From Pseudomonadota bacterium (GTDB lineage: Bacteria; Myxococcota; Myxococcia; Myxococcales; JAKAPL01), in contig DAIDIT010000042.1 in the NCBI GenBank assembly GCA_027451705.1, positions 1 through 44,082 on the forward strand: 44,082 nucleotides of DNA, given 5' to 3'. The position numbers and the translations under genes are program-made. Shown here piece by piece: positions 24,277-27,933 of this stretch (its first letter is position 1; every line of letters starts with the position of its first letter). The notes beneath the pieces are model-generated. The model did not search any database and had not been told where the DNA came from. It saw nothing but the letters and a program-made list of their open reading frames with translations.

Positions 24277-24666
24277 ATGCCCACGAAGCGTGTGACCCGA
24301 CGGGCCGAGGAGCAGTTGCGGCGCGGCAAGCGGCCGACCACCGCGGCCGGGGAGTTCGTCCACGAGGAGATCGAGCACGTACGGCACGGCAAGCACGGCG
24401 CACGCTCGCCGAAGCAGGCCATTGCCATCGGCCTCTCGAAGGCGCGGCGCGCGGGGATCCCGGTGCCGTCGAAGGGGAAGTCCGCGAAGCACGCGGCGCC
24501 GAAGAGGTCCACCAAGCGGGGCGCCGCGTCCCACCGCGGCGCGTCGCACAAGCGGGCGGCCGCGTCGCTCGGGGCGCTGCGGCGGGAGTCGCGCGGGACG
24601 GTGTCGCGCGGTGCACTCGCCAGACAGGCCAAGACGTCGCGGCGGAGCACGGGCCGCCACGCCTGA
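24277..24666 (+). CDS. DUF6496-like small basic protein
   Basis: GEFVHEEIEHVRHGKHGARSPKQAIAIGLSKARRAGIPV followed by K/R/A/S-rich tail. Confidence 0.85.
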   Translation: MPTKRVTRRAEEQLRRGKRPTTAAGEFVHEEIEHVRHGKHGARSPKQAIAIGLSKARRAGIPVPSKGKSAKHAAPKRSTKRGAASHRGASHKRAAASLGALRRESRGTVSRGALARQAKTSRRSTGRHA

Positions 24667-26165: not shown

Positions 26166-26240
26166 TGGAGGCGCCACCCAGATTCGAACTGGGGAATGAA
26201 GGTTTTGCAGACCTTTGCCTTACCACTTGGCGATGGCGCC
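26166..26240 (-). tRNA. tRNA-Cys(GCA), CCA encoded
   Basis: GGCGCCATCGCCAAGTGGTAAGGCAAAGGTCTGCAAAACCTTCATTCCCCAGTTCGAATCTGGGTGGCGCCTCCA; 7-bp acceptor stem, GTTCGAATC T loop, anticodon GCA. Confidence 0.96.
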
Positions 26241-26313: not shown

Positions 26314-26766
26314 CTACGGCCGCGCCTTGATCTTCTCGCGCTGGCGCTTGCCCTTCGTCTTGCGGATGACGCGGGTTCGGCGCCGCTTCTCCTTGGCCGC
26401 GACCTTCGTCTCGACGGGGATGTGGTGGCGGCCGCCGGGGCGGCGCAGGTGCGGCTCCTTCTGGACCGGATCGAGGCTGTCGTAGAGGGCGCGGAAGGCG
26501 GCCTGGAGCTTGTCGAGGTAGGCGACGAGGGCGGGGAGCGACGCGGTGCGGCCGACCAGCGCGGACTTCAGCGCGAGCTGCACGCGCTCGACGGCCCTGT
26601 GCGGCTCGAGGTGCCGATCGAGCTCGGCGAGGAGGTCTCGCGGCGTGCGCAGCTCGCCCGCGAAGGCGAGCAGGGTGCCTTCGGGGACGCGGTGGAGGAG
26701 TCGTTCGCGGAAGTCGGCCACGCGGGCCTTGATGCGGTGGTGGACGGCGTTGCGGGTGCGGGACAT
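26314..26766 (-). CDS. Hypothetical protein with basic C-terminus
   Basis: MSRTRNAVHHRIKARVADFRERLLHRVPEGTLLAFAGELRTPRDLLAELDRHL...KRRRTRVIRKTKGKRQREKIKARP; sequence upstream of 26766 in this frame is the repeat array. Confidence 0.7.
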   Translation of the reverse strand: MSRTRNAVHHRIKARVADFRERLLHRVPEGTLLAFAGELRTPRDLLAELDRHLEPHRAVERVQLALKSALVGRTASLPALVAYLDKLQAAFRALYDSLDPVQKEPHLRRPGGRHHIPVETKVAAKEKRRRTRVIRKTKGKRQREKIKARP

Positions 26767-26794
26767 GAGGCCCACCAGGGTAGACCCGAAGCTC

Positions 26795-27269
26795 GGGTCG
26801 CACCAGAGGAGCGTGCGGTCGGGCGACTCGAGGCTCGAGTCCAGGCGCCGGCATTCGGTGGAACGCCCCACCGAATGGAGCCGGGTCGAGTGCGAGCGCG
26901 ACTCGGGCGAGTCGAAGCTCGACTCGTGCCGCCTGCAATCGGAGGGGCGTTCCACCGATTGCGGCAACGTCGAATGCAAGCTCGACTCGGCCGATTCGGC
27001 CCTCGAGTCGGTCTCTCTGCATTCGGAGGTGCGCTCCACCGAATGCAGGAAGGGCGAGTCGAGGCTCGAAGAGGCCGAGTCGAGCTTCCAATCGGCCTTT
27101 CTGCATTCGGTCGTGCGCCCCTCCGAATGCAGTCAGGCCGAGTCGAGCCTCGACGGGCCATTTCGACGTTCGAGTCAGCCTCCCTTCATTCGGTGGAGCG
27201 CCCCTCCGAATTCAGGAAGGTCGAGTCGAGCCTCGCGGAGGTCGACTCGAGCTCGAATCCCGTCCCATC
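26795..27269. repeat. 84-bp-period tandem array of dyad-symmetric units (5 palindromes)
   Basis: 28-bp palindromes start at 26851, 26935, 27019, 27103, 27186 (spacing 84, 84, 84, 83); consensus about GCATTCGGTGGnGCGCnCCACCGAATGC; intervening 56-bp segments are homologous to each other. Confidence 0.9.
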
Positions 27270-27422
27270 GAGGAGAAGCGGGGCCCCATCGGCGCTCGCC
27301 AGGCCGATCCTCGCGACGCCCGAGACGCCGCCGAGGAGCGCCATCGGGTCCCCGCGCGGGCGCCGCCACTCGACGGCGCAGCCTGCGACCAACCCGAGCC
27401 GGAAGGCGGCGGCGAAGGTCAT
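27186..27422 (-). CDS. Possible small hypothetical protein whose 3' end runs into the repeat array
   Basis: MTFAAAFRLGLVAGCAVEWRRPRGDPMALLGGVSGVARIGLASADGAPLLLDGTGFELESTSARLDSTFLNSEGRSTE; the TGA stop lies in repeat unit 5. Confidence 0.35.
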   Translation of the reverse strand: MTFAAAFRLGLVAGCAVEWRRPRGDPMALLGGVSGVARIGLASADGAPLLLDGTGFELESTSARLDSTFLNSEGRSTE

Positions 27423-27523
27423 CGACCGGAGAACGCGCGCAGCGCGCGCCTCGCGGGCAGGCCTTTCCGCCGCGGGGAACGAGGCGTGTCCGAGCCACCA
27501 CGTCCACCGCCGCAGCGGCTCGG

Positions 27524-27552
27524 TTGACAGCCTGGGGGGGGGGAACTAAGAC
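27524..27552 (+). promoter_or_regulatory. Candidate sigma70 promoter with G10 spacer tract
   Basis: TTGACA (27524-27529), 17-nt spacer GCCTGGGGGGGGGGAAC, TAAGAC (27547-27552), 9 nt before ATG 27562. Confidence 0.4.
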
Positions 27553-27561
27553 CTGGGTTGA

Positions 27562-27933
27562 ATGCTGCGCCGAGGTTTCGCACTGGTGGGGGCAGTCTGC
27601 CTGGTCTTCTCGCCGGGAGCCGGTGGGCTCGGTCGCGCGCTGGCTTCGATGGACGCGTGCGGCTGCAACATGGGCCCCGACTGCCCGATGTGCCGGGCAC
27701 GCCGGATGCGAGAGAAGCGGGCGGCTGACCTGGCGCACCATTGTCCTTGCCGCCTCCAGCGGTCGACGGCCGCGGGACAGGGCGCCGCCTCGAGCACGGC
27801 TGAGTCCGATCCACAGGGCCGTCGGGCGGTCGCAACTCTGCCGTCTGCCGATCCCGACCGCTGGATATTGCCCGCGCTCCTTCCTCCCGAGTCCTGGTCC
27901 CCCAAGATCCCCCGTCGGCCGCCGCGCGCGTAG
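27562..27933 (+). CDS. Secreted Cys/Met/His-rich small protein, possibly metal-binding
   Basis: Signal-like N-term; MDACGCNMGPDCPMCRARRMREKRAADLAHHCPCRLQ. Confidence 0.65.
   Translation: MLRRGFALVGAVCLVFSPGAGGLGRALASMDACGCNMGPDCPMCRARRMREKRAADLAHHCPCRLQRSTAAGQGAASSTAESDPQGRRAVATLPSADPDRWILPALLPPESWSPKIPRRPPRA

Follow-up and report, generated by a model that had tools for sequence, protein, structure and literature searches.

Five tandem 84-bp quasi-palindromic units lie directly upstream of P0001, a 150-aa gene of an unannotated paralogous family, in the window analysed here (the whole stretch of DNA, 44,082 nucleotides). Distant paralogs of P0001 carry upstream tandem arrays of their own. 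The unit sequences of these arrays are mostly unrelated between loci, and their best period is almost always an exact multiple of 21 bp. The most probable reading, to which we assign a probability of about 0.45, is a helically phased DNA-protein array, similar to an operator or an enhancer, that would control the downstream family gene. The initial annotation described the repeat itself and overlooked its tie to the downstream gene, its recurrence in the genome and the wider class of arrays with a 21-bp pitch. The features of the locus are the following:

26166..26240, minus strand: tRNA-Cys (gca), the final element of the synteny common to the relative G002
26314-26316, minus strand: stop codon of P0001
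26317..26766, minus strand: P0001, 150-aa gene of the unannotated paralogous family (codon composition, close copies, profile match)
26767..26820, minus strand: spacer between the array and the start codon of P0001, about 54 bp
26821..27253, no strand: array of five 84-bp quasi-palindromic units, starting at 26821, 26905, 26989, 27073 and 27156
26825..26841, no strand: palindrome B (GACTCGAGGCTCGAGTC)
26909-26925, 27056-27072, 27077-27093 and 27140-27156: similar copies of palindrome B
26852..26877, no strand: palindrome A of unit 1 (CATTCGGTGG AACGCC CCACCGAATG)
26936-26961, 27020-27045, 27104-27129 and 27187-27212: counterparts of palindrome A in the other units

The array and the gene downstream of it

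The units follow one another at 84, 84, 84 and 83 bp. TRF gives a period of 84 with 4.6 copies and a score of 325, well above any other array of the window; together with the unit starts, this bears out the five copies first described. The perfect 10-bp stem with its 6-nt centre at 26852-26877 was recovered as well, and unit comparison agrees with the earlier view that the segments between the palindromes are mutually homologous. On a 21-bp grid, the 84-bp consensus is composed of four 21-mers in the order U-X-X'-U. The first and the last (U, CCGAGTCGAGCCTCGACTCGG-like) are identical and self-complementary, and the third (X') is the reverse complement of the second (X, CCTTCCTGCATTCGGTGGAGC-like). 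Consequently, the palindrome axes fall on a 10.5-bp grid. Of the 84 positions of the consensus, 66 count towards the dyad score, compared with 38 in shuffles (z 10.2), which confirms the quasi-palindromic character of the unit and makes this array the most dyad-symmetric among the family arrays compared. The conserved columns are symmetrically placed about the axis, and the GCGC centre of the palindrome is conserved and loop-free. The nearly identical peptides reported on both strands do occur; they are explained by the dyad symmetry in combination with a period divisible by 3.

The GC content of P0001 by codon position is 0.77/0.46/0.95, and its codon composition and close copies indicate that it is a real coding sequence. 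Of the two minus-strand open reading frames initially placed at the flanks of the array, the one at 26314-26766 is this supported gene, whereas the one at 27175-27741 has no family match. The proposed search for the repeat in the host genome was productive, since the array DNA matches three more contigs, C173, C87 and C200. On C173 and C87 the array is again directly upstream of a copy of P0001 (79% identical and partial in C173, 80% identical in C87). C200 ends and C38 starts in one and the same palindrome, and 19 nt of the two overlap, so they probably represent a single locus, in which the copy of P0001 (on C38) is degenerate. The homology among these copies spans the array and the gene and ends outside them. 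The assembly of the source genome (G000) breaks at or near the copies on C87, C173, C200 and C38, and copy numbers from the draft genome are therefore probably underestimates.

The relative G002 conserves the flippase and the tRNA-Cys that precede P0001, with 71% DNA identity. The homology ends just past the tRNA-Cys and P0001 was not found in this syntenic stretch; the gene and its array lie past the tRNA-Cys, beyond the stretch of shared gene order. Within its corresponding flippase/methyltransferase region, G002 has another, different array, of 21/42/63 bp (L153:13533-13920), upstream of a DNA-methyltransferase gene, so the same neighbourhood gained a 21n array at another spot. The window also encodes, at 24277-24666 on the plus strand, a small basic protein with a DUF6496 domain (PF20106), which is the sole copy in the source genome and whose family is absent from 14 control genomes.

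The 21-bp pitch across the gene family

Searched with P0001 at the first threshold, its own genome gave about 30 weaker paralogs, and five relatives gave 1-12 each. A family profile (A2) built from 44 members matches in only five of 195 genomes of the phylum, which represent three taxonomic families of one order, a small group of myxobacteria, and no relatives outside the order were found among the 195 genomes beyond those five. P0001 is a diverged member of a family with about 30 copies in a 3.6-Mb genome. Contig scans yielded only three loci, all from one MAG. Plasmids, phages and viral contigs contained no relatives of the protein, and a plasmid or phage origin was rejected on this ground. 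The AlphaFold2 model of P0001 (mean pLDDT 84.8) predicts a helix, a beta-hairpin, a 54-residue helix and basic C-terminal helices, and the model of a second family member has the same layout. Searches of Pfam, NCBIfam, PHROG, PADLOC, Foldseek and PDB with the family gave no credible annotation or similar fold. In the family alignment no catalytic residues stand out and there are no conserved acidic, His or Tyr residues. Many family genes (upstream regions L103, L104, L110, L105, L064 and L065) have a near-perfect Shine-Dalgarno sequence (AAAGGAGGTGA), which suggests strong translation; P0001 has none.

Periodicity was scored at every lag from 15 to 130 bp in the 1.5 kb upstream of 50 family loci and downstream of 54, and a region was taken as periodic at an identity of at least 0.6, the maximum in shuffled sequence being about 0.55. 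The upstream region is periodic in 32 of the 50 loci and 31 of these give their best score at an exact multiple of 21: 42 (13 loci), 21 (7), 126 (5), 63 (3), 84 (2) and 105 (1). The single exception is a lag of 86, on C35. Downstream, 10 of 54 regions are periodic and one of the 10 has a lag that is a multiple of 21 (Fisher 4e-12 for upstream against downstream). The binomial probability of the upstream result is 4e-39 (2e-24 with the lags restricted to multiples of 3). All these probabilities assume independent loci, though some of the loci are recent duplicates. Among 35 consensus units, 17 are significantly dyad-symmetric (p<0.05), and the mean z is 2.6; about half have no significant dyad. 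No 10.5-bp harmonic was found within the 21-mers, which leaves intrinsic bending or curvature unsupported.

Arrays and family genes are strongly, not strictly, associated. In 1.16 Mb of sequence from five of these genomes, a sample picked partly for its content of family genes, about 25 arrays with a 21n pitch were counted, and for 14-15 of them a family gene follows within 1.3 kb downstream. The remaining 10 or so are mostly upstream of unrelated genes and showed no tie to sigma54 promoters. A clear array within 1.5 kb is missing for about 40% of the family genes. Near-identical genes of G002 can have quite different arrays (C24 and C43) or none (C37 and C70). The homologous arrays of C24 and C43 (L105, L106) differ by short blocks (AGCCT/GCCGC, TCT/AAG, ACGAC/GAGGG), which sit between identical stretches and are each homogenised within their own array. 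Contig C6 of G002 carries two arrays separated by about 130 kb (L150:9512-10009 and L157:781-1236) whose 42-bp units are related and inversely oriented; one neighbours a family gene, the other an unrelated lipoprotein-like gene.

A sigma54 consensus score of 10 or more was reached by 15 of 46 family promoters, where 0.42 would be expected. These sigma54-like promoters are mostly 81-134 bp ahead of the start, and at this subset of loci the arrays are mostly 100-300 bp further upstream. The arrays usually end 100-400 bp ahead of the start codon, which is the place of enhancers. P0001 itself has only a degenerate sigma54-like match: its spacer holds TGGTGCGACCCGAGCT about 39 bp ahead of the start codon, with the counterparts TGGCGCGACCCGAGCG in C87 and TGGCCCGAGTCGAGCT in C173, and this is at best a degenerate -24/-12 promoter. 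A Gibbs motif search in the promoters lacking sigma54 sequences recovered mainly the ribosome-binding site. Recent duplicates in G002 are cassettes of 0.65-1.1 kb that comprise an upstream segment, the gene and an intrinsic-terminator-like hairpin at the 3' end. No terminal repeats or target duplications were recognised at the cassette ends. In C37/C70 the array is outside the copied unit and a promoter-like segment separates it from the gene.

Proposed phased binding sites and the rival explanations

As a phased array, the locus would consist of many weak dyad sites spaced by exact multiples of 21 bp, or two helical turns (eight turns for the 84-bp unit), immediately upstream of the promoter or the start of a gene from a lineage-specific multicopy family. 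Protein dimers would occupy these sites in phase, all on a single face of the helix, and would serve the gene downstream as an operator or enhancer. At sigma54-type promoters, the array would take the position of an upstream activating sequence. Protein binding, the identity of the binder and transcriptional regulation are what we infer in this model. In its favour are the recurrence of the array ahead of the same gene on C42, C173 and C87, the 21-bp rule and the upstream bias in the family, the dyad symmetry and the sigma54-like promoters of a subset. Several observations count against it: about half of the arrays have no significant dyad, about 40% of the genes have no clear array within 1.5 kb, orphan arrays exist, near-identical genes have differing or missing arrays, the 10.5-bp harmonic is absent and the sigma54-like sequence of P0001 is degenerate.

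The main rival is a two-turn amplification without function, an explanation that we find possible though rather doubtful. The arrays would then be functionless minisatellites with a 21-bp pitch, products of a lineage-specific process in which a protein that covers two turns of the DNA it binds directs slippage or recombination, and their upstream clustering would come from chance of origin or insertion preference. The arbitrary, locus-specific units and the higher-order periods of 42, 63, 84 and 126 are typical of satellite growth. The orphan arrays, the near-identical genes with differing or missing arrays and the lack of any selected harmonic inside the 21-mer point in the same direction. 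On the other hand, the upstream bias and the link to one gene family are strong, dyad symmetry is unexpected from plain slippage, and no clear intergenic 21n arrays were seen in 400 kb from three other lineages of the order.

The initial annotation had seen a hint of selection on RNA or cruciform structure. It is improbable that the array is transcribed into repeated hairpins acting, for instance, as a leader, as a sponge or as guide RNAs to which the family protein attaches by its basic C-terminus. The predicted single-strand folds are very stable on both strands (z -14.4 and -14.0 relative to shuffles), as expected from any inverted-repeat array, and the protein models do predict basic helices at the end of the chain. 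Pairing, which was said to be kept while the stems diverge, does not exceed chance over the whole unit, where paired cells amount to 70.2% observed and 70.2% after shuffling of the partners among units. The compensatory changes suggested as a check do not exceed shuffles unit-wide and are slightly in excess within the 28-bp stem (covariation 0.160 against 0.106, 16/500 shuffles). There, two units of C87/C200 are altered on both sides at several pairs, and much of the excess comes from one change common to C87 and C200/C38. GT and AC mismatches at paired positions number 29 and 35, so there is no G-U bias and neither strand is favoured as RNA. These results and the conserved loop-free GCGC centre leave selection on an RNA or a cruciform unsupported. 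Rfam gave two chance-level microRNA matches at the array, far below gathering scores, and the promoter-like segment of C37/C70 implies that an array need not be cotranscribed with its gene. Half-sites that match the consensus independently, without covarying, around a conserved centre fit dimeric DNA recognition better than a hairpin.

Mobility of the array and the gene as one element, with the array as a cis-acting end in the manner of REP sequences for RAYT transposases, is likewise a poor prospect. Array and gene are the only homologous parts of the 3-4 unrelated sites at which the P0001 pair is present, the tRNA-Cys locus of G002 lacks the pair, and other members have spread as the cassettes with 3' terminator-like hairpins. 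Against this stand the lack of a nuclease or transposase family match, of conserved acidic, His or Tyr residues and of a similar solved fold, the unremarkable cassette ends, and the C37/C70 array outside the duplicated unit. Coding by the arrays is the least credible alternative and would be very surprising: 21 bp equal seven codons, and some frames are open and heptad-like, as in C176 and in C43 of G002. The window array, however, has stops in all three sense frames, which together with the absence of a codon-phase signal upholds the earlier conclusion that it is not one intact repeat protein. Moreover, open frames vary between loci, 1-bp indels occur, unit 5 is 83 bp long, C35 has a period of 43/86, and no period-3 excess was detected. 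Between the consensus units of C24 and C43, 6 of 14 residues differ in the sense frame with zero synonymous changes.

A conserved sequence is what normally identifies regulatory DNA. These arrays conserve a distance, and the sequence is swapped between loci, across three bacterial families of one order. If the phased arrays are binding sites, motif tools would easily overlook them, and selection on helical register alone could be studied in a natural setting. If they come from an amplification process, they would exemplify one with a two-turn ruler. Under either reading, a wholly unannotated multicopy family gains a common upstream feature. We tentatively suggest, as something possible and short of probable, a new chromosomal element in which pitch and often dyad are inherited and sequence is free, the arrays serving as scaffolds of phased nucleoprotein filaments beside a family of coiled-coil basic proteins. 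That this family is as a whole dispersed, fast-turning-over, coiled-coil and basic is proposed with similar reserve.

Comparison with known systems

The initial annotation did not recognise the repeat family, and no description of it was found in the literature searched; nothing relevant emerged on bacterial tandem repeats of 21 bp or with helical phasing. The P0001 subfamily resembles REP/BIME sequences with RAYT in having dispersed palindromic units beside a gene that spread as a unit, and differs in the fixed 21n tandem pitch. A REP/RAYT system was rejected, as P0001 has no Pfam, NCBIfam or PHROG match or similar fold that would indicate a Y1 tyrosine transposase. One palindrome sequence dispersed over the genome, as in REP/BIME, was not seen either: the array DNA matches only at C42, C173, C87 and C200, all of the same subfamily, and other arrays have unrelated units.

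In TIGR-Tas systems (PMC12045711), the units yield 36-nt RNAs, the spacers vary within the array and the protein has a Nop domain. The present arrays are similarly gene-adjacent and tandem, with a repeat constant within a locus and variable between loci, whereas they have a 21n pitch and units homologous throughout. The segments between palindromes are mutually homologous and not unique spacers, by which CRISPR and TIGR arrays were rejected. TIGR-Tas was further dismissed since no Nop-like fold was found for P0001 and Foldseek and Pfam gave no significant match. Bacterial minisatellites share the tandem growth, the homogeneous units and the higher-order periods, and are distinguished by lacking one exact pitch over unrelated sequences, the dyad symmetry and the place upstream of one gene family.

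Plasmid iterons and partition-site arrays (parC/parS-type) are helically phased tandem sites, bound in known cases by an adjacently encoded protein. The family arrays have the tandem, helically phased arrangement in common with them. Unlike those systems, they are chromosomal, exist in dozens of copies and have no replication or partition gene; the family protein has no known DNA-binding fold, and near-identical proteins are found beside differing arrays. Upstream activating sequences of sigma54 promoters are bound by bacterial enhancer-binding proteins, and helical phasing matters there. The arrays depart from sigma54 enhancers in having up to 20 tandem copies, a fixed 21-bp pitch and a locus-specific sequence, and in occurring also at genes without a sigma54 promoter. 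With these enhancers they share dyad sites upstream of a gene, as found in the window (z 10.2) and in 17 of 35 arrays, and at a subset of loci these sites are 100-300 bp upstream of TGGCAC-N5-TTGC promoters.
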